64,000 bases of DNA from contig JAFSOA010000005.1 of NCBI GenBank assembly GCA_017447265.1, forward strand, positions 100,798 through 164,797, read 5' to 3'. The translations under genes and the position numbers were made by a program. Positions 3,069 to 61,129 of this stretch are shown here, in pieces (position 1 is the stretch's first letter; every line of letters starts with the position of its first letter). The notes beneath the pieces are model-generated. The model was given only the letters and a program-made list of their open reading frames with translations, made no database searches and was not told the DNA's origin. Source of the stretch: Bacteroidales bacterium. GTDB taxonomy: Bacteria; Bacteroidota; Bacteroidia; Bacteroidales; UBA932.

Positions 3069-4506
3069 TACAACACTTAAGGAAAAAACGTCCCGCGGGT
3101 TGTTCTGGGGTGGCTTTAGCAACTTGCTGCAGCAATTGCTAAGTGTGGCATTTGGCATTTACCTCGCCAGAGTTCTGTCTCCTGATGATTATGGCCTGGT
3201 AGGGATGCTTACTATTTTTATCATGCTTTCTTACGCCTTGCAAGATGGAGGCTTTATTTCTGCGCTTATCAATCGCAATGGCGTCAGTCACAATGATTAT
3301 AACGCTGTTTTTTGGTTTAGCACGATAGTATCTCTCTGTTTTTATTTAATTCTTTTCGCTTGCGCTCCTTTAATCGCACGATTCTTTCATCGCCCGGAAC
3401 TAGTCGCTCTGTCACGTTGGACATTTTTGGGCATCATTGTCTGCGGATTAGGCATAGCCCATAGAGCCATGCTTATGAAAAAGATGATGATACGGGAGAT
3501 CGCCATTGTTAATATTCTGTCGATTGCTGTGTCGGGTTTTGTCGGTGTCTTTTTGGCTCATAAGGGTTTTGCGTATTGGGCATTGGCTATTCAGGGGGTG
3601 CTTGCCGCGACGATAACAAATGCTGGTTATTGGATAGCATCTCATTGGAGGCCTACATTTCATTTTGACACGAGTCCTTTAAAGGAGATGTTCCCATATG
3701 GATTCAGACTGATGGTAACCAACATCCTTAATAACATCAATCCCAGTTTAGTGACCGTTATCCTTGGCAGGTTTTACAATGTCGCTCAGGTCGGTTTTTA
3801 TACTCAGGCTAGCAAATGGCAGACAATGAGCAACAATGTTTTGTCAGGCATGGTTAATGGTATTGCCCAGCCCGTTCTTTTTGAAGTCTCTGGCGAAAGT
3901 GACCGTCAATTGCGAATACTTCGAAAGATGGTAAGATTTATCGCATTTGCGACATTTCCGGCCATGGCAGGACTCGCTTTTATTGCTCCGGAGTTTATTG
4001 TAACATTCCTTACTTCAAAGTGGAGTGAAAGCATCCTGCTGTTGCAAATTCTTTGCATCGGAGGGATGACAACGCCGATTTCAAATGTTTTAATCAATCT
4101 TATACTCAGCAAGGGGCGTGCATCTCAGTATATGTATTCCAGCCTTATCTATTTCACTTTGACGTTGGCGTTGGCTTATTTTCTTCATCCCCATGGGGTC
4201 GTTTGGATGGTGGCGGGTGTAACAGCGCTGACAGTTCTTTGGCTTCTTGTATGGTTGCTATTGGTGCAGAAAGAGGTTAGGTACTCTTTGAAACACTTTC
4301 TATTAGATATAGCTCCTTTTTTTTGTGTTACCGGCATCAGTATTATAGCAGCTTTTTTTATCACACGGGGTATTTCGAGCCTCGCCTTGCGATTGGTAGC
4401 TAAAGTCTTCGTGACGGCCCTTATTTATATACTGATTATGTGGAGTTCGGGCTCTGTTATTTTCAAGGAATGTGTTAGATTTGTCAAGAATAAACTAAAT
4501 AGATAA
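3061..4506 (+). CDS. wzx: O-antigen/polysaccharide flippase of the MOP superfamily (Wzx-like)
   Basis: A 481-residue protein with about twelve to fourteen membrane segments. The N-terminal stretch TSRGLFWGGFSNLLQQLLS and YLARVLSPDDYGLVGM is the hallmark of the polysaccharide transporter branch of the MOP family. The enzyme moves undecaprenyl-diphosphate-linked repeat units to the periplasmic face of the inner membrane. It lies between the GT-C-like gene (8-bp overlap) and rfbF (4-bp gap), as expected in a Wzx/Wzy-dependent cluster. The whole gene has the low GC of the surrounding cluster. The family is certain; the exported glycan is inferred from neighbours. Confidence 0.85.
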   Translation: MSDTTLKEKTSRGLFWGGFSNLLQQLLSVAFGIYLARVLSPDDYGLVGMLTIFIMLSYALQDGGFISALINRNGVSHNDYNAVFWFSTIVSLCFYLILFACAPLIARFFHRPELVALSRWTFLGIIVCGLGIAHRAMLMKKMMIREIAIVNILSIAVSGFVGVFLAHKGFAYWALAIQGVLAATITNAGYWIASHWRPTFHFDTSPLKEMFPYGFRLMVTNILNNINPSLVTVILGRFYNVAQVGFYTQASKWQTMSNNVLSGMVNGIAQPVLFEVSGESDRQLRILRKMVRFIAFATFPAMAGLAFIAPEFIVTFLTSKWSESILLLQILCIGGMTTPISNVLINLILSKGRASQYMYSSLIYFTLTLALAYFLHPHGVVWMVAGVTALTVLWLLVWLLLVQKEVRYSLKHFLLDIAPFFCVTGISIIAAFFITRGISSLALRLVAKVFVTALIYILIMWSSGSVIFKECVRFVKNKLNR

Positions 4507-4510
4507 AAAA

Positions 4511-5287
4511 ATGAAAGTTGTGCTCCTTGCCGGTGGCTTCGGCACCCGTATTTCCGAAGAATCGCAGTTTAAGCCTAAGCCGATGATTGAGATTGGCGGA
4601 ATGCCAATCCTTTGGCATATCATGAAAGAATATGCTTGGTATGGGCACAAGGAGTTTATCATCTGTGCAGGGTACAGGCAGAATATGATAAAACAATGGT
4701 TCTCAGAGTATTTCTTGTACAGTAGTGATGTGACGTTTGATTACTCTAAAGGAGAGAATGCGGTTGAGGTCCTTTCCTCTCAATGTGAGCCTTGGAAGGT
4801 AACCGTTGTGGATACTGGCCTGAATACGATGACGGGTGGCCGCATCAAGCGCATCCAGAAATATGTCGGTGACGAGCCATTCCTCATGACCTATGGAGAT
4901 GGCGTGTGTGATGTGAATATCAATGACTTGATTCGTTTCCATCAGTCTCATGGCAAAATCGCGACCCTTACAGCCGTGCTTCTTGAGCAGCAGAAAGGAA
5001 TATTGGATATCGGCGGTGATAATGCTGTGAAGTCTTTCCGTGAGAAGAATCAGGCTGATAGTGCTCCAATCAATGCCGGGTATATGGTACTTAATCCGGA
5101 GATTTTTTCCTATCTGGAAGGCGATCAGACTGTGTTTGAGCGCTGCCCGATGGAGCAACTTGCAGCAAATGGTCAGTTGATGTCATATATGCATCGTGGC
5201 TTTTGGCAGTGTATGGATAACATCCGGGAGAAGGAAATGTTGGAAAAACTATTGGCTGAAAACAAGGCGCCTTGGAAAAAATGGTAA
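4511..5287 (+). CDS. rfbF: Glucose-1-phosphate cytidylyltransferase
   Basis: A 258-residue nucleotidyltransferase that makes CDP-glucose from CTP and glucose-1-phosphate, the first step towards CDP-3,6-dideoxyhexoses. The N-terminus has LLAGGFGTR (residues 5-13), the nucleotide-binding loop, followed by KPKPMIEIGG and LWHIMKEYAWYGH, which are characteristic of RfbF/DdhA rather than of RfbA or GalU. TYGDGVCDV carries the metal-binding aspartate. Its length matches the family (about 257). Together with rfbH and rfbG downstream it forms a complete route to the E1 intermediate. Confidence 0.95.
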   Translation: MKVVLLAGGFGTRISEESQFKPKPMIEIGGMPILWHIMKEYAWYGHKEFIICAGYRQNMIKQWFSEYFLYSSDVTFDYSKGENAVEVLSSQCEPWKVTVVDTGLNTMTGGRIKRIQKYVGDEPFLMTYGDGVCDVNINDLIRFHQSHGKIATLTAVLLEQQKGILDIGGDNAVKSFREKNQADSAPINAGYMVLNPEIFSYLEGDQTVFERCPMEQLAANGQLMSYMHRGFWQCMDNIREKEMLEKLLAENKAPWKKW

Positions 5288-26608: not shown

Positions 26609-27469
26609 ATGCGTCAACTAAAGATTACCAAGTCGATCACCAACCGAGAGAGTGCATCGCTTGACAAATACCTGCAGGAGATCGGTCGCGAAGAATTGAT
26701 CACCGTCGAAGAAGAAGTCGAACTCGCACAACGAATTAAGAAAGGAGACCAGGAAGCCCTGGATAAACTGACACGCGCCAACCTGCGCTTCGTCGTCTCT
26801 GTCGCCAAACAGTATCAGAACCAGGGCCTCAGCCTCCCGGACCTGATCAACGAAGGAAACCTCGGCCTGATCAAGGCAGCAGAAAAATTCGACGAGACCC
26901 GCGGCTTCAAATTCATCTCCTACGCCGTGTGGTGGATCCGCCAGAGCATCCTCCAGGCACTTGCCGAGCAGAGCCGCATCGTGCGCCTGCCGCTCAACCA
27001 GGTCGGATCGCTCAATAAGATCAACAAGGCCCTTTCCCAGTTCGAGCAGCAGTACGAGCGCCAGCCGTCGCCCGACGAACTGGCCGACATGCTCGAGATC
27101 CCGCGCGAGAAAATCGCCGACACCCTCCGCGTATCCGGCCGCCACGTATCCGTCGACGCCCCGTTCGTGGACGGCGAAGACAACAGCCTGCTCGACGTGC
27201 TGGTCAACAACGACTCCCCGAACGCCGACAAAGGCCTCGTCAACGAAAGCCTCAACACCGAGATCGAACGCGCCCTCTCCACGCTGACCGAGCGCGAACG
27301 CGACATCGTGAAATATTTCTTCGGCATCGGCTGCCAGGAAATGACCCTTGAAGAAATCGGCGAAAAATTTGGCCTGACCCGCGAACGCGTGCGCCAGATC
27401 AAAGAAAAAGCCATCCGTCGCCTGCGCCACAGCGCCCGTAGCAAACTGCTCAAGGGATACCTGGGCTAA
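26609..27469 (+). CDS. rpoD: Primary sigma factor, Bacteroidetes type
   Basis: A 286-residue sigma-70 protein lacking region 1.1, the normal form of the Bacteroidetes primary sigma factor. Region 1.2 is [15 protein letters not shown], region 2 contains [18 protein letters not shown] and [16 protein letters not shown], region 3 follows, and region 4.2 is [18 protein letters not shown] with the -33 recognition helix. It directs RNA polymerase to TAnnTTTG promoters, several of which occur in this window. A terminator-like hairpin lies in its leader; it is followed after 12 bp by the symporter gene. Confidence 0.95.
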
Positions 27470-50075: not shown

Positions 50076-50642
50076 ATGAGGCGAACCGCAAAGATTATCC
50101 TGTATTCCGCAGTTTTCCTGTCGCTGTTCCCGGCGACGGGGTGCCGCCCCGAGGGAGTAATTCCCCCGCAGGACATGGCTGCGCTCATCGCCGACTTTTA
50201 CCGGGCCGATGCCGTGATTGAAGTCGAACAGGAGAGCGGCTCCCGGCAGCTGCACTACGATTCGCTCCGGGTATACCGTCCGATCCTCGAGGCGCGCGGT
50301 TACACCGACTCCGTCTTCCGGGTCTCGCTCGACTATTACCTGCACGATCCCAAGACACTGGTGAAGATCTGCACGAAGGCCCGCGATGAACTGCAGCGGC
50401 TGGCCGAGCAGCGGCCGGGCGAGATTCCCGTGGACGAGCTGGACCGCGAAGAACCGGCCATCGAAGAAGGGGAGGTGCCTGCCGGGCGCCCTGCCGTGCG
50501 GGAAGGCGTTGAACCGGAGATCGAAAAGCGGGAAGCCGTGCCTGACAGCGGCGACAAGCCCGTCCGCAAGCGCCTCGAACGCAAACAGCGCAAGAAGATG
50601 ACCCGTCAGGAACTGAGACAACTGGAAAAAGAACTGCAATAA
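50076..50642 (+). CDS. DUF4296-type lipoprotein
   Basis: A 188-residue protein with a signal peptide and lipobox-like FPATGC (cysteine about residue 23), then VIPPQDMAALIADFYRADAV and a helical DUF4296 domain to about residue 110 (YYLHDPKTLVKI). The C-terminal 70 residues are charged and of low complexity (Glu, Arg, Lys). The DUF4296 function is unknown. It opens the long + strand operon, two bases before deoC. Confidence 0.8.
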   Translation: MRRTAKIILYSAVFLSLFPATGCRPEGVIPPQDMAALIADFYRADAVIEVEQESGSRQLHYDSLRVYRPILEARGYTDSVFRVSLDYYLHDPKTLVKICTKARDELQRLAEQRPGEIPVDELDREEPAIEEGEVPAGRPAVREGVEPEIEKREAVPDSGDKPVRKRLERKQRKKMTRQELRQLEKELQ

Positions 50643-50644
50643 AT

Positions 50645-51436
50645 ATGGAGAAACAAGCGATATACAAGGCCGTGCTCGGGATGATCGACCTGACCTCCCT
50701 CAACAGCACCGACACCTATGCCAAGATTGCCGGCATGACGGAGAAAGTCAACCATTTTCACGATTCTTTCCCCGATTATCCGCTTCCGGCGTCGATTTGC
50801 GTCTATCCCAATTTCGCCGCCACCGTGGCCCGTACCCGTGCTACGAGCGATGTCCACGTGACCGTCGTAGGTGGCTGTTTTCCCGCCTCGCAGAGCCCGC
50901 TGCCCGTAAAGGTCGCCGAGTGTGAGACCGCCGTGCGCGATGGTGCCGATGAAGTCGACATCGTGCTCGCGCTGAACTCCTTCCTGGAGAAGAACTATCC
51001 GGAAGCTGCGCGGGAGATCGTGGCCATCAGCCATGCCATCCGCGCTGTCAATCCGATGGCGCACCTGAAAGTGATTCTCGAGACCGGCGCCCTGAAAGAG
51101 AAGGCGCTCATCGAAGACGCTTCCTTCCTGGCCATGGAAGCCGGCGCCGACTTCATCAAGACATCCACCGGCAAGATGCAGCCCGCGGCCACGCCCGAAG
51201 CGGCTGAGATCATGTGCCTTTGCATCAAACAATACTACGACAAGACAGGCCGGATGGTGGGCTTCAAGCCCGCCGGCGGCATCGCCACGCCGGAAGACGC
51301 GGTCACCTATTGGGATATCGTGGAAGGCACACTCGGCGAGAAGTGGCTCGACAAGCGCTGGTTCCGTTTCGGCGCCAGCCGCATGGCCAACAACCTGCTC
51401 TCCGCCCTGGAAGGCCGTGAAGTAAAATACTATTAA
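50645..51436 (+). CDS. deoC: Deoxyribose-phosphate aldolase
   Basis: A 263-residue class I aldolase that cleaves 2-deoxyribose-5-phosphate to glyceraldehyde-3-phosphate and acetaldehyde. The Schiff-base lysine is in ADFIKTSTGK, and the start of the barrel is LGMIDLTSLNSTDTYAKIA. The second lysine is in GFKPAGGI. It is the longer DeoC type (about 260 residues). First enzyme of an operon that also holds an adenosine-type deaminase, so nucleoside salvage is a theme. Confidence 0.95.
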   Translation: MEKQAIYKAVLGMIDLTSLNSTDTYAKIAGMTEKVNHFHDSFPDYPLPASICVYPNFAATVARTRATSDVHVTVVGGCFPASQSPLPVKVAECETAVRDGADEVDIVLALNSFLEKNYPEAAREIVAISHAIRAVNPMAHLKVILETGALKEKALIEDASFLAMEAGADFIKTSTGKMQPAATPEAAEIMCLCIKQYYDKTGRMVGFKPAGGIATPEDAVTYWDIVEGTLGEKWLDKRWFRFGASRMANNLLSALEGREVKYY

Positions 51437-51447
51437 TCCCCGCAGCC

Positions 51448-52644
51448 ATGGACGATATCCTCATCAAGAACGTACTGCTCTTCAACAAGAAAGCGAATGT
51501 GCTGATTCGCGGCAAGCGCTTCTGCAGTGTCTCCGCACCTGCGGATGCACAAGCCCGCCAGGTAATCGACGGAGAGGGAATGGCGATTCTGCCGCCCTTC
51601 TACAATACCCACTGCCATGCGGCGATGACCCTGCTCCGTGGCTATGCCGACGACATGCCGCTCCACAAGTGGCTGACCGAATACATCTGGCCTTTCGAAC
51701 AGAAACTGACAGCGGCCGATATCCGCGAAGGCTCGCGCCTGGCCGTCCGGGAGATGATCAAAACGGGTACGGTCTTTTTCTCCGACATGTATTTCGACAT
51801 CGAGGAGACTGCGGCCGTGGTGCAGGAATACGGCATGCGCGCCGCCCTGGGCGTGACCTTCATGGAATCGCACAGCAAGTCGCAGCAGCAGGACAAGCTC
51901 AACCAGCTCAGGAACTGGGTCGACCCGACCGGCGGCCGGATCACCCTCACCGTGGCACCGCACGCCATCTATACGGTCGGGGCAGACATGCTGCAGCTTT
52001 GCTCCCGCACGGCCCGCGACCTGGGCCTCAAACTCCATATCCACGTGTCGGAGACCAGCAAGGAAGTGGAAGACTGCCGGCGCGAGCACGGCACCACGCC
52101 GGTCCGATACCTCGACAAACTGGGCGTGCTGGGTCCCGAAGTGGTGGCCGCCCATGCTGTCCATATCGACGAGGAAGAGGCGGACATCCTGGCCGCCCGG
52201 GGCGTCACCCTGGCCCACTGCCCCTGCTCGAACCTGAAACTTGCCTCGGGTACCTTCCCCTACAAGCGGGCCCTTGCAGCCGGTTGCCACGTGACCCTGG
52301 GAACCGACGGCGTGAGCTCGAACAACAATCTCGACATGCGCGAGGAGATGAAATTCGCCGCCCTGCTGGCCAAAGGGGCGAGCGGCGACCCGCAGACCAT
52401 GCCGGCCCACGAGGCCCTGGACATCGCGACCCGCAACGGCTCGGAGGCCTTCGGCATCGACGCCGGCGTCATCGCCGAAGGAAAGCTGGCCGACGCCATC
52501 CTCATCCGCCTTGACGTCGAGAGCATGCAGCCCCTCCATCACCTGATCTCCAACTGGGTCTATGCGGCGGACAGCGGCATCGTCGACACCGTGATCTGCG
52601 ACGGCCGCATCCTGATGCAGAACCGTGAATTTACCAAAGCGTAG
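51448..52644 (+). CDS. mtaD: Amidohydrolase, probable 5'-methylthioadenosine/S-adenosylhomocysteine deaminase
   Basis: A 398-residue amidohydrolase of the MtaD/TrzN branch. Metal ligands are visible: FYNTHCHAAMTLLRGYADD, LHIHVSETSKE, VAAHAVHID and LGTDGVSSNNNLDMREEM. The MPLHKWL segment is characteristic of MTA/SAH deaminases, which convert these nucleosides to the inosyl forms. It lies 11 bp after deoC and 6 bp before the alarmone synthetase-like gene. The annotation as deaminase is good; exact substrate is unproven. Confidence 0.8.
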   Translation: MDDILIKNVLLFNKKANVLIRGKRFCSVSAPADAQARQVIDGEGMAILPPFYNTHCHAAMTLLRGYADDMPLHKWLTEYIWPFEQKLTAADIREGSRLAVREMIKTGTVFFSDMYFDIEETAAVVQEYGMRAALGVTFMESHSKSQQQDKLNQLRNWVDPTGGRITLTVAPHAIYTVGADMLQLCSRTARDLGLKLHIHVSETSKEVEDCRREHGTTPVRYLDKLGVLGPEVVAAHAVHIDEEEADILAARGVTLAHCPCSNLKLASGTFPYKRALAAGCHVTLGTDGVSSNNNLDMREEMKFAALLAKGASGDPQTMPAHEALDIATRNGSEAFGIDAGVIAEGKLADAILIRLDVESMQPLHHLISNWVYAADSGIVDTVICDGRILMQNREFTKA

Positions 52645-52650
52645 CGAACG

Positions 52651-53748
52651 ATGAAGAAGGCACTGGAAGAATATGGCCTTGACCTGCACGGCACGATGAT
52701 CCTGGAGGATTACCGGGAGAATCTGCCCATCTTCAACAAGATGAAGGATGTGGTTCTCAAGGCGCTGACGGAGTGCCTGACGCGCAGCAACATCGTGGTC
52801 AGCGGCATCGAGGGCCGGGTCAAGACGGAAAGCAGCCTGGTCGGAAAGCTGGAGCTGAAGGGACATAAATACCGCGACCTGACCGACATCACCGACGTCG
52901 TGGGCGTGCGCGTGATTACCTTCTACACCGAGGAGGTCGACAAGATCGCCGCCCTGGTCGACAAGCTGTTCAGCGTGGACTGGAAGAATTCCGTGGACAA
53001 GCGCAAGCAGCTGGGCAAGGATACCTTCGGCTATATGTCGCTTCACTACATCTGCCGCATCCCCGCCTCCCTCTTTTCGGATCCCGCCTGCCCGGGCATC
53101 AACGAATATCGTTTTGAAGTGCAGATGCGCACGGCCCTGCAGCACGTGTGGGCCACCATGAACCACGATACGGGCTACAAGAGCGGGGTGGAAGTGCCGC
53201 CCGAACTCCTGCGCAGCCTCACGCGCCTGGCCGGCATCCTCGAACTGGCCGACGAGGAGTTCAGCCGCATCCGCAAGGAACTGACGGACTACCGCCGCAA
53301 GGCCGAACAGCTGGTGAAGGACGGCAGTTTCGACCAGGTCTCGCTCAATGGCGACACCTGGCGCAGCTACCTCGGCCTCGATCCTTTCGGCACGCTCAAC
53401 GCCAAGATCGCCGCCATCAACCAGGCCGAGATCCAGCAGTTGAGCGGCATGCCGTATCTGGAACCCATGCTCCAGATGGATCTCAAGACCCTGGGCGATG
53501 TGGAAGAGATGCGCAAGAACTGCTTCGACCGGGCCTACCAGCTGGCCGTGCACCAGATCAGCGGCACCGACCTCGACATCATCGCCTCGACCCTGGGCCT
53601 GCAGAACATCTGCATCATTCATGCCTTCGACCTGGGCGGCAAGAAAGGCATCGAGCACTTCCTCGACAACCTCAACGGCCCGTCGAAGTACAATGCCGAA
53701 ACGGCCGGGCGTCTTTATACGAGTATTAACAATATACACAATATGTAA
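52651..53748 (+). CDS. RelA/SpoT-domain protein, probable (p)ppGpp or related synthetase
   Basis: A 365-residue protein with a RelA/SpoT nucleotidyltransferase domain in the first about 200 residues. Synthetase motifs look intact: GRVKTESSLVGKLELKG, ITDVVGVRVITFY, FGYMSLHYICR and FEVQMRTALQHVWATMNHD. It has no HD domain of its own; the next gene supplies one. The C-terminal about 150 residues, helical and partly RSH-unlike, are of unknown role. Different from the long RSH enzymes; similar in layout to small alarmone synthetases with an extension. Product could be ppGpp or another pyrophosphorylated nucleotide. Confidence 0.75.
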   Translation: MKKALEEYGLDLHGTMILEDYRENLPIFNKMKDVVLKALTECLTRSNIVVSGIEGRVKTESSLVGKLELKGHKYRDLTDITDVVGVRVITFYTEEVDKIAALVDKLFSVDWKNSVDKRKQLGKDTFGYMSLHYICRIPASLFSDPACPGINEYRFEVQMRTALQHVWATMNHDTGYKSGVEVPPELLRSLTRLAGILELADEEFSRIRKELTDYRRKAEQLVKDGSFDQVSLNGDTWRSYLGLDPFGTLNAKIAAINQAEIQQLSGMPYLEPMLQMDLKTLGDVEEMRKNCFDRAYQLAVHQISGTDLDIIASTLGLQNICIIHAFDLGGKKGIEHFLDNLNGPSKYNAETAGRLYTSINNIHNM

Positions 53749-55160
53749 TGGCAAACAAGTTCATGGACAGCTCCTTGCTCGACAAGGCCATCTGCTTCGC
53801 AGTCCGGGCGCACCAGAATACCGAGCGCCGCGGTAAAGGATTCCCCTATATTGTCCATCCGATGGAGGCCGTCTCCATCGTGGCGACCATCACGCCCGAT
53901 CAGGAACTGCTGGCCGCCGCCGCCCTGCACGATGTGGTGGAGGACACTTCCATCACGCTGGATGAGCTGCGCCGCGAGTTCGGCGAGCGTGTCGCTGCGC
54001 TCGTGGAACAGGAAAGTGACAAGTTCATGGAAGGGGTCAGCGAGACGGACAGCTGGCGCGATCGCAAGCAGGCCGCCATCGACCGCATCGCCGAGGCGCC
54101 CCGGGACGCCCAGATCGTCGCCATGGGCGACAAGCTTTCGAACATGCGCGCCATTGCCCGTGATTACGACGAACTGGGCGACAAACTCTGGGAGCGTTTC
54201 CACGCACCGGGCGGCCGCGCTGACCATGAGTGGCATTACCGCGGGCTGGCCCAGTCGCTCAGCACCCTGGCCGGGACCCATGCTTTCCGGGAGTTCATGG
54301 CGCATATCGAGCACGTGTTCGGCAAGCCCAAGCCCGAGCTGATCAACATGGACGACTATGAGGTGAGCGGCGACGGCTACACCGCCATCAGCTACAACCA
54401 TAAGGGCGGCAAACGCATGATGAAGCTCTATGCTGAATACATGCCCACCGCCGAGCCGGAGCGCGAGCTGCAGCAGAGCTGGTCCATCATGGAACTGGGC
54501 ATGAACATTCCGCGGGCCTTCCGCCTGGTAACGGATGGCAAGCGGGTAGGGGTCGAGTTTGAGCGCATCCCCGGCAAGCGATCCTTCTCCCGGGCCATCT
54601 CGCAGGAACCGGAGCGCATGGAGGAGTACATGATGCACTTCGCGGAAGCCTGCCGTAAGCTCCATGCCACGCCTTGCAACACCAAGGTGTTCGCTTCGGT
54701 CAAGGACCATTTCAACCGGTCTATCAGCGTCTCGCGCGACTTCAATGATGCAGAGAAAGAGCGCCTGCATGCGTTCGTGGACAGCGCGCCTGACGCCACC
54801 ACCTGCCTCCATGGCGACATGCACATGGGCAACATCATCACCGACGGCAAGCAGACCTGGTGGATCGACCTGGCGGATTTCCGCTACGGCCATCCGTATT
54901 TCGACATGGGCATGCTTTATTTCGTGTGCGTCAGCAACCCGTCCGAAGAGATGTCGCAGAAAATTTTCCACTTGTCTCACGCGCAGATGTTGAAAGCCTG
55001 GGAGCTCTTTGTCCGTTACTATTTCGGACCGGATGTCACGGTAGAAGAAGCCAGTCGCCTGATTGCGCCCTATGCTTCGCTCTATATGATCCATTTCGCC
55101 AACCGGGAAGCCATGCTCCCGCACTGGCGCCCTGCTGTCTACAACACCCTGCTGAAGTAA
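53748..55160 (+). CDS. HD (ppGpp-hydrolase-like) - APH kinase fusion
   Basis: A 470-residue two-domain protein. Residues 1-about 190 are an HD domain with the SpoT-type metal set: His37 (YIVHPMEA), His61-Asp62 (LHDVVEDT) and Asp128 (MGDKLSNMRA). Residues about 200-470 resemble aminoglycoside/choline phosphotransferase-like kinases, with catalytic CLHGDMHMGNIITDG (His355, Asp357, Asn362) and metal-binding WWIDLADF. Its start overlaps the preceding synthetase stop by one base. The pairing implies one protein that removes and one kinase activity that is unassigned. The kinase substrate is unknown. Confidence 0.8.
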   Translation: MANKFMDSSLLDKAICFAVRAHQNTERRGKGFPYIVHPMEAVSIVATITPDQELLAAAALHDVVEDTSITLDELRREFGERVAALVEQESDKFMEGVSETDSWRDRKQAAIDRIAEAPRDAQIVAMGDKLSNMRAIARDYDELGDKLWERFHAPGGRADHEWHYRGLAQSLSTLAGTHAFREFMAHIEHVFGKPKPELINMDDYEVSGDGYTAISYNHKGGKRMMKLYAEYMPTAEPERELQQSWSIMELGMNIPRAFRLVTDGKRVGVEFERIPGKRSFSRAISQEPERMEEYMMHFAEACRKLHATPCNTKVFASVKDHFNRSISVSRDFNDAEKERLHAFVDSAPDATTCLHGDMHMGNIITDGKQTWWIDLADFRYGHPYFDMGMLYFVCVSNPSEEMSQKIFHLSHAQMLKAWELFVRYYFGPDVTVEEASRLIAPYASLYMIHFANREAMLPHWRPAVYNTLLK

Positions 55161-56480
55161 ATGCACTATATCTTTATCATCAACGGACGGGAAGACAAGG
55201 CGTTCATCGCGGATGAGGTGGATCGCCAGATCCGGGATTACGGCCCGGGCCTGGACTATGAGATCTACAAGACCCGCGGCGTGGGTGACGCCACCCGCTT
55301 CGTCAAGGTCCACTGCGACCTGCACCCGAACGCGAAGGTCTGCTTCGTGGCGTGCGGCGGCACAGGAACCCTCAACGAAGTGGCTTCGGGCATGGCCGGC
55401 TCGCACGACAAGCAGCTGGCGCTCCTGGCCTACGGTGCCACGAACGACTTCTGCAAGTGCTTCCCCGACCGCGATTTCACGTCGCTGCGCAAGTTGGTCG
55501 ATGGAGAAGTCCATCCCGTCGACTTGATCAGGGTCAACGACAGTTATGCCATCAACGTCATCAACATCGGTTTCGACGCCGTGGTTGCGTCAATGGCCAA
55601 TCAGGCCATCGAAGAAGGGAAAACGGATGAGGAAAGTGTCCGCCGTGCTTATAACTGGGGCATCTTCCGTGCACTTGTAACCGCACGCAACAACCGCATC
55701 CGGGTGGTGGCCGACGGCGAGCGCCTGAACCGTTATTGGATCCTGCTCTGCACGGTGGCGAACGGCCGCTGGTGCGGCGGAGAGTTCCTCTGCGCACCCC
55801 GCGCCGAAGTCGACGACGGCTTGATGGAAATCTGCCTGATCAAGCCGATGTTCTTGCTGTCGTTCCTCCGCATCCTCCCCATTTACCGGAGCGGCAGGCA
55901 CCTGGACACGCCCTGGGCCATGTTGCACATGCGTTATAGGCGTGCCCGCCACGTAGATGTGATTTCCGATGACTTGATAGATGTTTCCCTTGACGGAGAG
56001 ATTTTCTCCAGCCATACCTTCAGTATAGATATTTTACCCCACGAAGTAAACTTTATTCTTCCTTCACTCATAACTATGAAAAAGAGATTTGAACCCATCA
56101 TCGACAAATGCGGCGAGATCATCGACTATCTGATGTCTTCCCCTGATATCCCGCAGGATGAATCGTTGCAGTTCAAGATCCGGCTCTCCATCGAAGAGGC
56201 TGTCGAGAATGTCGTACGCTATGCGTATGAAGGCGGCATGGGCTGGATCGAGGTCGGGACGGAACTCGACCCGGAAGGCGTGATGCTTACCATCCTGCTC
56301 CGCGACGCTGGCGTTCCCTTCAACCCGCTCGAAAAGGCTGACCCCGACATCTCCCTGTCGGCTGAGGAGCGTGAGATCGGTGGCTTGGGCATTTTCCTGT
56401 GCAAGCAGTTGATGGACGATATTGAATATAAGTATGAGGACGGATGCAACGTCTTGATCATGCGCAAGAAAGTGGCCTGA
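55161..56480 (+). CDS. Diacylglycerol kinase-like - RsbW-type ATPase fusion
   Basis: A 439-residue two-domain protein. The first about 300 residues form a diacylglycerol/sphingosine kinase catalytic fold, with CGGTGTLNEVASG in place of the usual GGDGT motif, then LALLAYGATNDF and APRAEVDDGLMEI. From Met306 on is an anti-sigma RsbW-like histidine-kinase fold: LSIEEAVENVVRYAYE (N box) and EIGGLGIFLCKQLMDDIEY (G box). Such ATPases phosphorylate STAS antagonists. Met306 follows an AT-rich stretch, so separate translation of the RsbW part is possible. It starts right at the previous stop. Confidence 0.85.
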   Translation: MHYIFIINGREDKAFIADEVDRQIRDYGPGLDYEIYKTRGVGDATRFVKVHCDLHPNAKVCFVACGGTGTLNEVASGMAGSHDKQLALLAYGATNDFCKCFPDRDFTSLRKLVDGEVHPVDLIRVNDSYAINVINIGFDAVVASMANQAIEEGKTDEESVRRAYNWGIFRALVTARNNRIRVVADGERLNRYWILLCTVANGRWCGGEFLCAPRAEVDDGLMEICLIKPMFLLSFLRILPIYRSGRHLDTPWAMLHMRYRRARHVDVISDDLIDVSLDGEIFSSHTFSIDILPHEVNFILPSLITMKKRFEPIIDKCGEIIDYLMSSPDIPQDESLQFKIRLSIEEAVENVVRYAYEGGMGWIEVGTELDPEGVMLTILLRDAGVPFNPLEKADPDISLSAEEREIGGLGIFLCKQLMDDIEYKYEDGCNVLIMRKKVA

Positions 56481-57427
56481 TGAAACGCCTTCTAACAGTT
56501 GCATTGCTGCTTCTGGCTGTTGTCGCCCTGCCGGCGCAGGAGGTCGTCACCTTCATGCCGCAGTGGCTTCCGCAGACTCAGTTCGCCGGCTATTATGTCG
56601 CGCTCGAAAAGGGCTTCTATGCAGAAGAAGGCCTGGACGTGATCGTCGATCATTTCGGTGGCAGTTCCACCGGCACGGCGCTGGAAAAGATCGAACAGCG
56701 CAAGGTCGACATCATCACGTCGCAGCTGATCTCGGTCATGATCGAGCGGGAACGGGGCATGCACTTGATCAACGTGCTTCAGACATCCCAGGTCAACGGC
56801 CTGATGTGCGCCACCCATTTCCCCATCACGTCGCCGGCGTCGCTCGACAGCGCCCTGATCGGCCGTTGGAAAGTGGGCTTCGGCGAGGTATGCGACCTGT
56901 TCTGCTACAAGCATGGCCTGCATGTGGAGTGGGTACCCTATATCCAGGGCATCAATCTCTTTATTTCGGGCGCCGTGGACGGGCTGCTCTGCTACAGCTA
57001 CAGTGAATTCCTCCAACTCGAGCTGGCAACGGGCGGCATCCGCGAAGACCATCGGATCCGCTTCAGCGACTACGGGCTCAATTATCCGGAGGACGGTCTT
57101 TATGTGACCGAGGAGTTCTACCGGAATCACAAGTCCACGGTCGACAAGTTTGTCCGTGCGTCGCGGCGGGGCTGGGAGTATGCCCGGGCCAACAAGGAAG
57201 AGGCCCTGGACATCTCGATGAAAGTCATTGCCGAATTCAACGTGGCCACCAACCGGACCTTCCAGCGCATGATGCTCGACGAGATCCTGCGCCTGCAGGT
57301 CAATCCGCTTACAGACATAGCCGACTATGCGCCGGTGCGCCGCGAAGTCTTCGAGGAACTCAACCGCTCGCTGATCGAGGCAAAGATCCTGAAGACCACC
57401 CTGAATTATGAGGAGATGATACGATGA
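56480..57427 (+). CDS. NMT1/THI5-like periplasmic substrate-binding protein
   Basis: A 315-residue protein with a cleavable signal peptide (about 1-20, LLLLAVVALPAQ) and an NMT1/SsuA-type fold: FMPQWLPQTQFAGYYVALEKGF, GLDVIVDHFGGSST, and IITSQLISVMIERERG. Such proteins normally bind thiamine precursors or sulfonates for an ABC transporter, but no permease or ATPase gene is beside it. I chose the ATG at 56480, sharing a base with the preceding stop. It probably acts as the ligand-sensing partner of the following Cache-type phosphatase. Confidence 0.85.
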   Translation: MKRLLTVALLLLAVVALPAQEVVTFMPQWLPQTQFAGYYVALEKGFYAEEGLDVIVDHFGGSSTGTALEKIEQRKVDIITSQLISVMIERERGMHLINVLQTSQVNGLMCATHFPITSPASLDSALIGRWKVGFGEVCDLFCYKHGLHVEWVPYIQGINLFISGAVDGLLCYSYSEFLQLELATGGIREDHRIRFSDYGLNYPEDGLYVTEEFYRNHKSTVDKFVRASRRGWEYARANKEEALDISMKVIAEFNVATNRTFQRMMLDEILRLQVNPLTDIADYAPVRREVFEELNRSLIEAKILKTTLNYEEMIR

Positions 57428-59322
57428 GCCTGAAAAAGAATTTCGCATCCAGGCTCAGCCTGTATGTCCTGCTGATTTCGGCGGGCCTGATGCTCGTGGT
57501 CACGATTCTCTTCGGACTCTTCTCCTCGTCCGCCATGCGGCTGGAGTCCCGGGCCGTTGCGGAGCGGGAACTCGACAACGCCATCCTCGACATCGAAAAG
57601 GTGATCACGGAGGTGGAACGTACCGTGGACAACCTGGACTGGGTGGTGGAGCAGCACATGGAGGACGAGAGTTTTCTCTACCTGGTTACGCGCGAGATCG
57701 TGACGGCCAACCCGAACATCATCGGCAGCGCGGTTGCTTTCGAACCGGGCTTCTACAAGGGGCGCCAGTATTTCTCTCCCTATACGTATATCGGTGACCA
57801 GACGCATGAGGTTCACAGCATCCAGATGGGCAACGAAAACTACGACTATCCGGTGCTGGACTGGTATCAGATTCCCAAACTGCTGAACAGGCCTTACTGG
57901 AGCGAGCCGTATTTTGACGACGGCGGCGGCGGACAGGCCATGTCGACTTATTCCATGCCGCTTCACGATGACGAGGGCAATTTCTACGGCATCATGACGG
58001 CCGACATTTCACTGGCCTGGCTGTCGGATCGCGTGGATGCCATCAAGCCTTATCCGCACTCCTTCACGATGCTGATCGGCCGCAACGGCTCGTTCATCGC
58101 CCATCCCGATGAGAACAAGGTGCTCAACGAGACCATCTTCACGGTGGCTATGGAAATGTTCGACACGACCGCCGTGCAGATCGGCCGGGAGATGCTGGCC
58201 GGCGCCAAAGGCATGCAGCGTTTCTCGAACCGGGGCGAGGATTCTTTCATGGTCTATGGCCCTCTGAGCAACGGATGGTCGATGGCCCTGGTCTGCAGCT
58301 ATGCCGACGTCTTCCGCAATGCCCGGATCATGAACATCGTGCTGGGTGCCCTGCTTTTCCTGGGCCTGATCGGCCTGTTCATCGGCTGCCGCCGGATCAT
58401 CCGCCAGCTGACGCTGCCCATCGTGGAATTCAGCAACTCGGCCATGACCATGGCCAAGGGCAATTTCAAGGCGGCCATCCCGGAAGTTGAAACCAAGGAT
58501 GAACTGCTGAAACTGCGCAATTCGCTCAGTTACATGCAGCAGTCCATCAATGAATATATCGAAGAGCTCAAGAGCACGACCGCTTCCAACGAGCGCTACG
58601 AGAGCGAGCTCAACATCGCCCGCGATATCCAGATGAGCATGCTGCCGCAGGACTTCCCGCAGCGGGACGACCTGTCGCTCTACGCGATGGTGCAGCCTGC
58701 CAAGGAAGTGGGGGGCGACCTCTATGACTTTGTCGTTGTCGGTGACACCGTCTACTTCCTGGTGGGCGACGTGTCGGGCAAGGGCGTTCCCGCCGCCTTG
58801 TTCATGGCCATCGCCCGTGCGGCCTTCCGCTTCATCGGCGCACTGGGCCTGCCCATGAAAGAAGTCGTACAGCGGGTGAGCGACTGCCTCTGCGACGGCA
58901 ATACCAGCGAAATGTTCGTCACCCTCTTCGCCGGCCGCCTCGACCTGAAGACAGGACAGCTGGACTATTGCAACGGCGGCCACAACCCCATTGTGGTCAT
59001 CGACCCGGACGGCAAGGCTTCCTTCCTGCAGGCCAAGCCGAACCTGGCTGCCGGCCTCTTCCCGGGGTTCCCGTACCAGGATGAAATCATCACGCTGAAA
59101 CGTGGCACACGACTTGTTTTGTACACCGACGGCGTGACGGAAGCGGAACGGGTTGACAAACTGCAATATGGCGAAGAGCAGTTGCTGGCCTGGGCGCAGC
59201 GGGTGAGTCCCGATACCCCGTCCAACGTGGTTGTTTCCGACCTGTTCACCCAGGTGAAGCACTTCACGAGGGGCGCTGACCAGAACGACGATATTACCAT
59301 CATGTCCTTATTATTCAAATAG
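57424..59322 (+). CDS. Cache-HAMP-SpoIIE phosphatase (RsbU-type)
   Basis: A 632-residue membrane protein. An N-terminal helix (about 10-35) is followed by a periplasmic double-Cache sensor (about 40-285; NIIGSAVAFEPGFYKGRQYF), a second membrane helix (about 295-315), a HAMP segment, a short coiled coil, and a PP2C/SpoIIE domain (about 395-632). Metal ligands are in GGDLYDF, VGDVSGKG and YTDGVTEAE. It would dephosphorylate the phospho-STAS protein when the sensor is engaged. It overlaps the binding-protein gene by 4 bp. Confidence 0.9.
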   Translation: MSLKKNFASRLSLYVLLISAGLMLVVTILFGLFSSSAMRLESRAVAERELDNAILDIEKVITEVERTVDNLDWVVEQHMEDESFLYLVTREIVTANPNIIGSAVAFEPGFYKGRQYFSPYTYIGDQTHEVHSIQMGNENYDYPVLDWYQIPKLLNRPYWSEPYFDDGGGGQAMSTYSMPLHDDEGNFYGIMTADISLAWLSDRVDAIKPYPHSFTMLIGRNGSFIAHPDENKVLNETIFTVAMEMFDTTAVQIGREMLAGAKGMQRFSNRGEDSFMVYGPLSNGWSMALVCSYADVFRNARIMNIVLGALLFLGLIGLFIGCRRIIRQLTLPIVEFSNSAMTMAKGNFKAAIPEVETKDELLKLRNSLSYMQQSINEYIEELKSTTASNERYESELNIARDIQMSMLPQDFPQRDDLSLYAMVQPAKEVGGDLYDFVVVGDTVYFLVGDVSGKGVPAALFMAIARAAFRFIGALGLPMKEVVQRVSDCLCDGNTSEMFVTLFAGRLDLKTGQLDYCNGGHNPIVVIDPDGKASFLQAKPNLAAGLFPGFPYQDEIITLKRGTRLVLYTDGVTEAERVDKLQYGEEQLLAWAQRVSPDTPSNVVVSDLFTQVKHFTRGADQNDDITIMSLLFK

Positions 59323-59349
59323 CAATAACCATAGACCTAAGATACTACC

Positions 59350-59652
59350 ATGAACGTAACCATTACTGAAGAAGGCGCAAAAGCGCTTGTGAAATTGGAG
59401 GGACGCCTCGACACCACCAATGCCGACCAGTTCCAGAAAGACATCCAGCCGCTGATGACAGGTTCTCACACTGAGATCGACATGGATTGCAGCGACATGG
59501 AATATACCAGCAGCCAGGGACTCCGCATGTTCCTGATGTTACAGAAGACGGTTTCCGCCCGCGGCGCGAAACTGGTGCTGCGCAACATGAAACCCCATGT
59601 CAAGGAAGTTTTTGACATCACGGGTTTCTCCCACATTATCACGATCTTATAG
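59350..59652 (+). CDS. STAS-domain anti-anti-sigma protein (RsbV-type)
   Basis: A 100-residue STAS domain with KLEGRLDTTNADQFQKDI and the phosphorylation loop MEYTSSQGLRMF, in which Ser54 or Ser55 is the likely target. It would be kept phosphorylated by the RsbW domain encoded upstream and reactivated by the SpoIIE phosphatase just before. It closes the operon; a 97-bp AT-rich gap with a promoter follows. No sigma factor gene lies nearby as its obvious final target. Confidence 0.9.
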   Translation: MNVTITEEGAKALVKLEGRLDTTNADQFQKDIQPLMTGSHTEIDMDCSDMEYTSSQGLRMFLMLQKTVSARGAKLVLRNMKPHVKEVFDITGFSHIITIL

Positions 59653-59749: not shown

Positions 59750-61129
59750 ATGACCAATCAAGCAATCTTCGACGCCCGTACGCTCGGCAAGCCTAAGATG
59801 GCACTTCTCGGACTGCAACACTTGTTTGCGATGTTCGGAGCCACTGTCTTAGTTCCAGTCATTACAGGGTTGTCGGTATCGGCAACCCTTCTTTTTGCCG
59901 GTTTGGGAACCCTCCTCTTCCACTTCCTGACCAAGTGGAAAGTACCTGCATTCCTTGGATCTTCCTTCGCATTCCTGGGTGGTTACGCTGCCGTTACGCA
60001 GATGGGCGCCGAGCGAGGCCTCTCTCTGGCCGAGTCGCTGCCTTATGCCTGCATCGGTGTCGCCTGCGCCGGCCTGATGTATTTCATTCTGGCCGCCCTG
60101 TTCGCCGCCTACGGCGCCAAGAAGGTCATGCGCTTCTTCCCGCCCGTGGTCACCGGCCCGATCATCATCGCCATTGGTCTCTGCCTCTCGGGTACGGCTA
60201 TCCAGAGCTGCTCGTCCAACTGGTGGATCGCTCTGCTGGCCATCGTCATCATCGTCGTGTGCAACATCTGGGGCAAGGGCATGATCCGCATCGTCCCGAT
60301 CCTCATGGGTGTGCTGGGCTCCTATATCGTGGCAGCCCTCTGCGGCCTGTGCGATTTCAGCGGTGTGAAGGAAGCTGCCTGGCTGGGAACGCCGTTCCAC
60401 ATGCAGGATACCGCCTTCGCCGTGTTCAAGTCTCCCAACTGGGGCCTTGTCGTGGCCGCTATCATCGCCATCCTGCCCATCTCGCTGGCAACGATGGTCG
60501 AGCATATCGGTGACATGTGCGCCATCTCTTCGACCACCGGTGAGAACTACCTGGAGAACCCGGGTCTGCACCGTACCCTGATGGGCGACGGCATGGCCAC
60601 CCTCCTGGCTTCGCTCTTCGGTGCTCCGGCCAACACGACTTACGGTGAGAACACCGGCGTGCTCAACCTGACCCGCGTCTTCGATCCGCGCGTGATCCGC
60701 ATCGCCGCCTGCTTCGCCATCATCCTGAGCTTCTGCCCGAAGTTCGCCGCGCTGATCGGCGCCATGCCCGCCTCGACCATCGGCGGCGTGAGCCTCGTCC
60801 TCTACGGTATGATCTCGGCCGTGGGCGTGCGCAACCTCGTGGACAACAAGGTCGACCTGACCATCTCCCGCAACCTGATCGTCGCCGCCATCATCCTGGT
60901 GCTGGCCATCGGTATCAAGTACGGTGCGAACGATTCCATCAATATCGGCTTCACCTCGCTCAGCGGCCTGGCCGTCGCAGCCCTGGTGGGCATCATCCTC
61001 AATGCTGTCCTTCCGGGCAAGGACTATGAATTCGGCTCCAGCCTCCGCGGCGACATCACCGTCAACCTTGGCGGTTCGACCCGCAACCCCAACTGGCGCG
61101 AAGAGCACCCGGAACATGCCAAACTGTAA
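59750..61129 (+). CDS. uraA: Uracil-xanthine permease (NCS2 family)
   Basis: A 459-residue inner-membrane permease with about fourteen segments. It starts LGLQHLFAMFGATVLVPVIT, the UraA signature, has AEHIG-type EHIGDMCAISSTTGENYLE with the substrate glutamate, and PANTTYGENTGVLNLTRVFD. It imports uracil (or related bases) with a proton. Own promoter. Followed by a DUF5020 outer-membrane protein and a purine permease, making a nucleobase-uptake unit. Confidence 0.9.
   Translation: MTNQAIFDARTLGKPKMALLGLQHLFAMFGATVLVPVITGLSVSATLLFAGLGTLLFHFLTKWKVPAFLGSSFAFLGGYAAVTQMGAERGLSLAESLPYACIGVACAGLMYFILAALFAAYGAKKVMRFFPPVVTGPIIIAIGLCLSGTAIQSCSSNWWIALLAIVIIVVCNIWGKGMIRIVPILMGVLGSYIVAALCGLCDFSGVKEAAWLGTPFHMQDTAFAVFKSPNWGLVVAAIIAILPISLATMVEHIGDMCAISSTTGENYLENPGLHRTLMGDGMATLLASLFGAPANTTYGENTGVLNLTRVFDPRVIRIAACFAIILSFCPKFAALIGAMPASTIGGVSLVLYGMISAVGVRNLVDNKVDLTISRNLIVAAIILVLAIGIKYGANDSINIGFTSLSGLAVAALVGIILNAVLPGKDYEFGSSLRGDITVNLGGSTRNPNWREEHPEHAKL

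Follow-up and report, generated by a model that had tools for sequence, protein, structure and literature searches.

A Bacteroidales operon joining a partner switch to alarmone enzymes: a candidate sigma-independent route to alarmone turnover

Introduction

Partner switches of the RsbU/V/W–sigmaB and SpoIIE/SpoIIAA/SpoIIAB–sigmaF kinds act on sigma factors; the SiaA/B/C partner switch of Pseudomonas aeruginosa appears as a non-sigma precedent in the excerpt available of one report (PMC7647112), and SiaC activates the diguanylate cyclase SiaD according to an excerpt of another (PMC8457831). Here we describe an operon of nine packed genes on the + strand at positions 50076–59652 of the window, that is, the whole stretch of 64,000 nucleotides that was analysed (Bacteroidales bacterium, assembly GCA_017447265.1, contig JAFSOA010000005.1, positions 100,798 to 164,797), in which a set of partner-switch genes lies beside genes for a predicted alarmone hydrolase and a predicted small alarmone synthetase (SAS). 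The usual view is that the alarmones of the stringent response answer to the state of the ribosome or of metabolites. We put at about even the chance that this operon is a sigma-independent partner-switching module having alarmone turnover as its output, a coupling that we infer from gene linkage and domain fusions.

In the excerpt available of the 2011 survey of RelA/SpoT homologues (RSHs), only long RSHs (Rel, RshB) are given for its 8 Bacteroidia genomes (PMC3153485). No description of a partner switch paired with an alarmone synthetase was found among the titles and abstract openings returned by our literature search.

Results

A five-component core shared by Bacteroidales families

The shared core consists of RsbW, SpoIIE, STAS, the SAS, and the HD hydrolase with its TIGR02172 kinase. 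Domain calls were made with Pfam and NCBIfam on 10 proteins of the window region, and the core components of the window, together with the two further components lying among them, are as follows.

52651–53748, + strand: small alarmone synthetase (SAS), 365 residues, core (PF04607, E 3e-17)
53748–55160, + strand: HD-type small alarmone hydrolase fused to a TIGR02172 APH-fold kinase, core (HD_4, E 7e-18; TIGR02172, 254 bits, cut-off 228)
55161–56078, + strand: degenerate YegS/DAGK-fold domain, fused to RsbW (DAGK_cat/YegS_C; GGTGT instead of GGDGT)
56079–56480, + strand: RsbW/SpoIIAB-type HATPase_c_2 serine kinase domain, core (PF13581, E 7e-20)
56480–57427, + strand (open reading frame as listed from 56444): NMT1/THI5-like periplasmic binding protein (PF09084, E 2.5e-29)
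57424–59322, + strand: PDC/Cache-HAMP-SpoIIE (PP2C) phosphatase, core (SpoIIE, E 1e-46; PDC, E 1e-29; HAMP, E 8e-6)
59350–59652, + strand: RsbV/SpoIIAA-type STAS protein, core (PF01740, E 4e-16; TIGR00377, 70 bits, cut-off 53; Ser-Ser region YTSSQGLR)

The core is clustered in five Bacteroidales families, the window's own (f1) and f79, f81, f41 and f2, with differing gene order: RsbW-SpoIIE-STAS-SAS-HD/APH in three f81 genomes of one genus (L043–L045), SpoIIE-RsbW-STAS-SAS-HD/APH in f79 (L042), SpoIIE/RsbW fusion-STAS-SAS-APH-HD in f41 (L086) and SAS-HD-APH-SpoIIE/RsbW fusion-STAS in f2 (L087). HD and APH are separate adjoining genes in the last two loci and in a further one, L121, and none of deoC, the deaminase, NMT1 and the DAGK domain was matched in the core clusters of f79, f81, f41 and f2. 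The first-pass annotation had read the nine genes of the window as one single system; an alarmone-linked set resembling RsbU/V/W is indeed conserved beyond the contig, and it is the five-component core alone that extends across families.

In a sample of 393 genomes of the order, the SAS and HD(-APH) proteins were found in the identical nine (E <= 1e-40), and partner-switch genes are adjacent to SAS-HD in seven of these nine. As the gene arrangement recurs in other genomes, it is beyond chance. The ten genomes with a SAS hold 22 SpoIIE genes, and the SAS lies within 5 kb of one of them in five of seven genus-level groups, for which the rough Poisson-binomial chance is 8e-10, a figure that ignores shared ancestry and is too optimistic because it treats the groups as independent and the genes as uniformly placed, and takes genome G782 as a separate group.

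Several observations weigh against a tie between the switch and the alarmone enzymes. SAS-HD stands apart from an NMT1-SpoIIE/RsbW-STAS set in G101 and G286, which belong to one genus, and the tenth genome, G782, is split between contigs, with SAS-HD-APH on L121 and RsbW-SpoIIE-STAS-DAGK on L066, so that adjacency is not obligatory. The SAS itself is rare and patchy, being found in nine of the 393 genomes and, of the six genomes sampled from the window's own family, in one. Domains of the RsbW type are widespread in the order (249 of 374 genomes), which makes co-occurrence at the level of genomes weak evidence, and we rejected it as proof; furthermore, 16 fetched SpoIIE/STAS/RsbW loci (L049–L053, L055, L057, L058, L093–L100) have no adjoining SAS/HD match. 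As to wider spread, a phylum sample of 395 genomes gave only the window's genome and two class-level genomes (G487, G667) with partial SAS matches of 35–36%, the latter two having no partner-switch or HD match inside the 20 kb fetched. A Bacillota SAS match (L122) lies on a contig other than that of L067, the Bacillota locus described below, with no partner-switch matches there.

Intact motifs of the partner switch and two RsbW lineages

The meaning of the SAS, HD, RsbW, STAS, SpoIIE and APH motifs is established family knowledge. The N, G1 and G2 boxes are present in the RsbW domain of the window and are kept in 32 aligned sequences, except L057, which is without the G1-box Gly; the Ser-Ser site of STAS is kept in 34 of 34 aligned sequences, and the metal-binding Asp motifs of SpoIIE, present in the window, are kept across the 23 aligned. 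The complete RsbU/V/W-like set claimed by the first-pass annotation is thus borne out, phosphatase, HATPase_c_2 kinase and STAS protein all being found with intact motifs.

A tree of 32 RsbW domains has 14 rows labelled linked, and its supported branches cannot be reconciled with fewer than three changes of this label, with the qualification that the bootstrap had yet to settle fully and that a number of end branches are long. One branch (96/100) has 12 linked RsbWs on one side, together with L066, the RsbW from the genome with its SAS elsewhere, and the long-branched L051, and the SpoIIE/RsbW fusions of L086 and L087 on the other; in the SAS tree, L086 is grouped with L087 (99/98). Because the linked RsbWs straddle the 96/100 branch, SAS-HD has been joined to two distinct switches, or one switch has been exchanged for another, and either event favours a functional tie over mere inheritance of gene order.

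The window's genome (2.1 Mb in 19 contigs, 79% complete, the window lying on contig C3) has, in this incomplete assembly, one RsbW above cut-off. A second SpoIIE + STAS pair occurs in the same genome at L055 9710–11310, with no adjoining RsbW match. The DAGK-RsbW protein may serve both SpoIIE-STAS pairs.

Predicted alarmone synthetase and hydrolase

The synthetase motifs of the SAS are kept in 15 of 15 aligned sequences, and no HD domain is present in the same chain; the protein is a small alarmone synthetase of predicted activity. Its C-terminal domain (residues ~236–365) has 24 residues invariant across the 15 sequences, and no TPR was found there by Pfam. In the HD protein, the hydrolase H, HD, ED and DK..N residues are likewise kept in 15 of 15 aligned sequences, HL replacing HP in those of f81, and it is a small alarmone hydrolase (SAH), again of predicted activity.

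The APH motif of the kinase portion is kept in the linked copies and is drifting in copies fused to STAS. Such TIGR02172-like kinases fused to STAS occur in L050, L098 and L099 (L050 and L099 being of the same genus), and the Bacillota contig L067 encodes a STAS-kinase-RsbW triple fusion; for L050, L098 and L067, the three that were tested, TIGR02172 was the top model at 104–121 bits, below its cut-off of 228. Since a kinase of the TIGR02172 type is fused to STAS elsewhere and to the hydrolase here, the HD-APH protein or the SAS C-terminal domain is favoured as the docking site of STAS.

At L067 8402–11919, a STAS gene and the triple fusion are followed by an SDF dicarboxylate symporter with an N-terminal extension of ~130 residues, in which a stretch like the RsbW boxes was noticed by eye; the partner switch may possibly act on a transporter there. 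Three further TIGR02172-type kinases, without adjoining partner-switch matches, are encoded in the window's genome on contigs C4 and C17 (L090, L091, L092), the family assignment having been checked for L090 only.

Loss of the GGDGT Asp in the DAGK-fold domain

The Asp of the GGDGT motif is important for catalysis in lipid kinases of this fold. In the switch-linked DAGK copies (the window, seven other fusions and L066), GGDGT is replaced by GG[ST]GT and GxGND by GxTND, without exception among the nine, eight of which are fused to RsbW. Both motifs are intact in all 19 other distinct DAGKs fetched, which are the copies most similar to that of the window and not all DAGKs of the 393 genomes; these have no adjoining RsbW/SpoIIE/STAS match (over 10–20 kb for seven and 2.5–3.9 kb for twelve), one of them (L121) sits 4 kb from a SAS-HD-APH set, and the other DAGK of the window's genome retains the Asp (GGDGA). 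The loss shared by all nine copies is probably a single inherited event, not nine.

GGDGT is named as a conserved ATP-binding motif of diacylglycerol kinases in the excerpt available of one paper (PMC7235333), and our literature search for work on DAGKs mutated in GGDGT returned nothing. The first-pass annotation had proposed lipid kinase activity as an output of the switch. With the Asp changed to Ser or Thr in every linked copy and kept in every comparison copy, lipid phosphorylation is an unlikely output, and this part of the earlier interpretation is probably wrong, whereas the part concerning alarmones without a sigma factor is plausible.

Pairwise ratios of nonsynonymous to synonymous substitution (dN/dS) were 0.14–0.33 for the DAGK domain (seven comparisons) versus 0.03–0.06 for RsbW, rough values at synonymous distances (dS) as high as 0.7–1.5. 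Being under purifying selection, the fused domain is not a decaying relic, and it probably serves in sensing or tethering instead of phosphorylating. An AlphaFold2 model of the DAGK-RsbW protein was middling (mean predicted local distance difference test score, pLDDT, 69; predicted template modelling score, pTM, 0.55), with the motif loop at residues 66–69 under 50, and we gave it no weight.

Sigma factors as an alternative target

No sigma gene is present among the 10 window-region proteins scanned, and no SigB/F/G-type sigma exceeds the TIGR02980 cut-off in any of the nine SAS genomes, that of the window being 79% complete, in agreement with the earlier statement that no cognate sigma gene accompanies the switch. 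Below threshold, each genome has one or two full-length hits to the SigB/F/G model, in proteins of the size of a primary sigma, its other hits being partial; the corresponding open frames measure 287–297 residues (348 in one genome). The best primary-sigma-like gene of the window's genome happens to lie in the same window (26609–27469, + strand), scoring 119 bits to the SigBFG model (G000:C3:127547-128233).

The leading rival to an alarmone output is accordingly a transcriptional switch in which RsbW would hold a primary or extracytoplasmic function (ECF) sigma factor encoded elsewhere, the alarmone genes being co-transcribed in answer to a shared starvation signal. RsbW and STAS are ordinary members of their families by sequence, and the genomes do hold a primary-sigma-like gene as well as partial ECF-like matches. 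A precedent is available in Chlamydia, whose switch is described as controlling the housekeeping sigma66 in the excerpt available of a review, which also cites a model wherein the freed target protein activates the tricarboxylic acid cycle (PMC8256260). We nevertheless regard a sigma target as unlikely: besides the missing sigma gene in the operon and the lack of a SigB/F/G factor over cut-off in all nine genomes, it leaves unexplained both the linkage of SAS/HD to two RsbW lineages and the fusions of STAS to the kinase.

The NMT1 protein and sensing

An NMT1 gene stands upstream of SpoIIE, with no adjoining alarmone genes, in five loci (L058, L093, L094, L095, L097), and we therefore place the NMT1 protein on the sensor side of the switch. 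Its nearest solved relatives include the pyrimidine-precursor binding protein 3ix1 (E 4.5e-9), a likeness that is only a lead toward the ligand. The gene start is more likely 56480 than 56444, since a TGATG couples it to the preceding stop and a signal-like N-terminus follows.

In L058 (3665–11855), NMT1-SpoIIE-RsbW-STAS is followed by an ABC_sub_bind protein and then by a 412-residue protein with an N-terminal STAS domain, after which genes for an ABC permease and ATPase were recognized by eye.

The nine-gene block in close relatives of the window

The remaining genes of the block and its downstream neighbour are as follows.

50076–50642, + strand: DUF4296 gene (PF14129, E 7e-15), leading the run and outside the core; in the same upstream place in L059, L060, L063 and L065
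50645–51436, + strand: deoC, deoxyribose-phosphate aldolase (TIGR00126, 140 bits, cut-off 117), a lineage-specific passenger with no match in the core clusters of f79 and f81
51448–52644, + strand: amidohydrolase of the MTA/SAH/5'-deoxyadenosine deaminase kind, SAH standing here for S-adenosylhomocysteine and MTA for methylthioadenosine (PF01979, E 1e-70; top NCBIfam model PRK06038, 434 bits, under its cut-off of 609), a lineage-specific passenger
59750–61129, + strand: UraA-type nucleobase permease (PF00860, E 3e-85), following a 97-bp gap downstream and kept in 7 of 7 close relatives; probably outside the module

From 5' to 3', the inter-gene junctions measure +2, +11, +6, −1, 0, −1 (or −37), −4 and +27 bp. 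The tight run of nine same-strand genes reported in the first pass is all present on the + strand, Pfam and NCBIfam agreeing with the domains named. Some details needed correction: genes overlap or abut at four of the eight junctions, the fifth then claimed being reached only by counting the 2-bp gap, and the interval 50645–59652 given for the block begins at deoC and omits the DUF4296 gene that was itself named as its leader.

The DAGK-RsbW protein was scanned against one genome per species (84,980 species), giving nine loci, of which seven (L059–L065) encode the full fusion; as the scan detects close relatives only, this count is a lower bound. Six of the seven records are Bacteroidales and one Bacteroidia, their sources being rumen or omasum (L062, L063, L065) and red deer (L059), with RUG codes, which we take to mean rumen, for L060 and L061. 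The nine-gene order is intact in L059, L060 and L063, so that it is not unique to the contig; uniqueness is the outcome that the first pass had named as refuting its idea. L065 has eight genes, NMT1 missing and 465 bp separating DUF4296 from deoC, and L061, L062 and L064 stop at the contig end, colinear as far as readable. The UraA permease, a short gene and a second permease follow downstream in all seven. Outside the window, the block of deoC, deaminase, NMT1 and DAGK fusion was met in close relatives alone.

These additions bear on the notion of co-transcription only, according to which a sensory switch and the enzymes of salvage and of alarmone turnover would be encoded on a single transcript but have no effect on each other. 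In its favour, deoC, the deaminase and the nucleobase permeases are apparently metabolic passengers added in the window version; in other families, however, the passengers are gone and the five core components are still together in rearranged order, and we judge the notion improbable.

Plasmid and phage proteins resembling the synthetase

The SAS might instead be toxin-like (toxSAS), with the HD protein as its detoxifying antitoxin, the two having been taken from mobile elements for defence and the switch being a trigger or a neighbour. The synthetase domain does resemble SAS-like proteins encoded by phages and plasmids (phrog_9640, E 9e-57; PADLOC candidate PDC-S33, E 8e-16). A Bacteroides finegoldii plasmid (L123, NZ_OY725946.1), which also carries phage portal and terminase genes, encodes at 3989–5062 an alarmone synthetase of 357 residues with 40% identity to the operon SAS over 212 residues, in the synthetase domain, and no HD annotated beside it; the patchy distribution of the SAS would also fit such an origin. 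However, BLASTP gave no alignment between the C-terminal domain of the operon SAS and that of the plasmid protein, this domain keeps its invariant residues (24 in 15 family members), the neighbours of the operon are constant among close relatives, and of the 78 pattern matches that the SAS alignment picked up in a scan of viral_contigs, none was a relative. We consider such a toxin-antitoxin pair improbable. Neither the viral_contigs scan nor tblastn of the SAS supports an origin of the entire operon in mobile elements or viruses; tblastn gave partial matches in 17 plasmid and 3 phage records, none covering 80% (best phage, 75%).

Discussion

The results described above are consistent with a partner switch whose output is alarmone turnover, and the following sequence of events may be envisaged. 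In the first step, an external small molecule would be sensed by the NMT1-type periplasmic protein, by the Cache domain, or by both. In the second step, the STAS protein would be dephosphorylated by the SpoIIE domain and phosphorylated by the RsbW domain, as suggested by the intact catalytic motifs and the established behaviour of these families. In the third step, for which gene linkage and fusions are the grounds, free STAS, exchanging with RsbW, would dock on the alarmone pair, the likeliest dock being the TIGR02172 kinase of the HD hydrolase or the conserved C-terminal domain of the SAS; the docked STAS would then alter how far synthesis of (p)ppGpp-like nucleotides is offset by their breakdown. 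More tentatively, we suggest that the switch might directly gate the SAS and the hydrolase, an external ligand setting the alarmone level via STAS phosphorylation with no sigma factor involved, and the dead lipid-kinase fold acting as a second sensor for a lipid or nucleotide; this full version is a doubtful one.

If the switch does act on alarmone turnover, the alarmone level would be set in a novel manner, by a dedicated route leading from an extracellular signal via a phosphorylation switch, and partner switching would extend from sigma factors and cyclic di-GMP to (p)ppGpp. Some RsbW and STAS genes of Bacteroidales genomes without a SigB-type sigma would also gain a suggested function, and the fused degenerate lipid kinase would be an unusual sensor candidate.

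The operon is worth comparing with the described systems that it resembles in part. It shares with RsbU/V/W-sigmaB and SpoIIE/SpoIIAA/SpoIIAB-sigmaF all three switch components with their motifs intact, but differs in being linked to alarmone enzymes and in having no SigB/F/G sigma over cut-off. The soluble lipid kinases YegS and DgkB (PDB 2qv7, 2jgr) are similar in sequence over most of the DAGK domain, whereas the operon DAGK is without the GGDGT Asp, has GxTND for GxGND and is fused to RsbW in eight of nine linked copies. Tde-SAS and Tde-SAH of Treponema denticola, as presented in the excerpt available of their report (PMC10434055), likewise comprise a SAS whose catalytic domain is followed by a C-terminal domain, and an HD hydrolase that is a protein of its own; their locus numbers, TDE1711 and TDE1690, are apart, whereas the SAS and HD genes of the operon are adjacent. 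Further differences from these two are the TIGR02172 kinase that the operon hydrolase carries and the attached partner switch, and Pfam finds no TPR in the SAS C-terminus. The SiaABCD system, finally, likewise combines, without a sigma factor, a PP2C phosphatase and a kinase acting on a phosphoprotein resembling anti-sigma antagonists with a second-messenger synthetase. Its output, however, is a diguanylate cyclase, whereas that of the operon would be a predicted alarmone synthetase and hydrolase, no GGDEF protein being found among the 10 window-region proteins scanned, and in the operon the part of the kinase falls to an RsbW-type HATPase that is joined to a degenerate DAGK fold. Because the target enzyme differs, the operon is not a member of SiaABCD, although it would be SiaABCD-like in its working.

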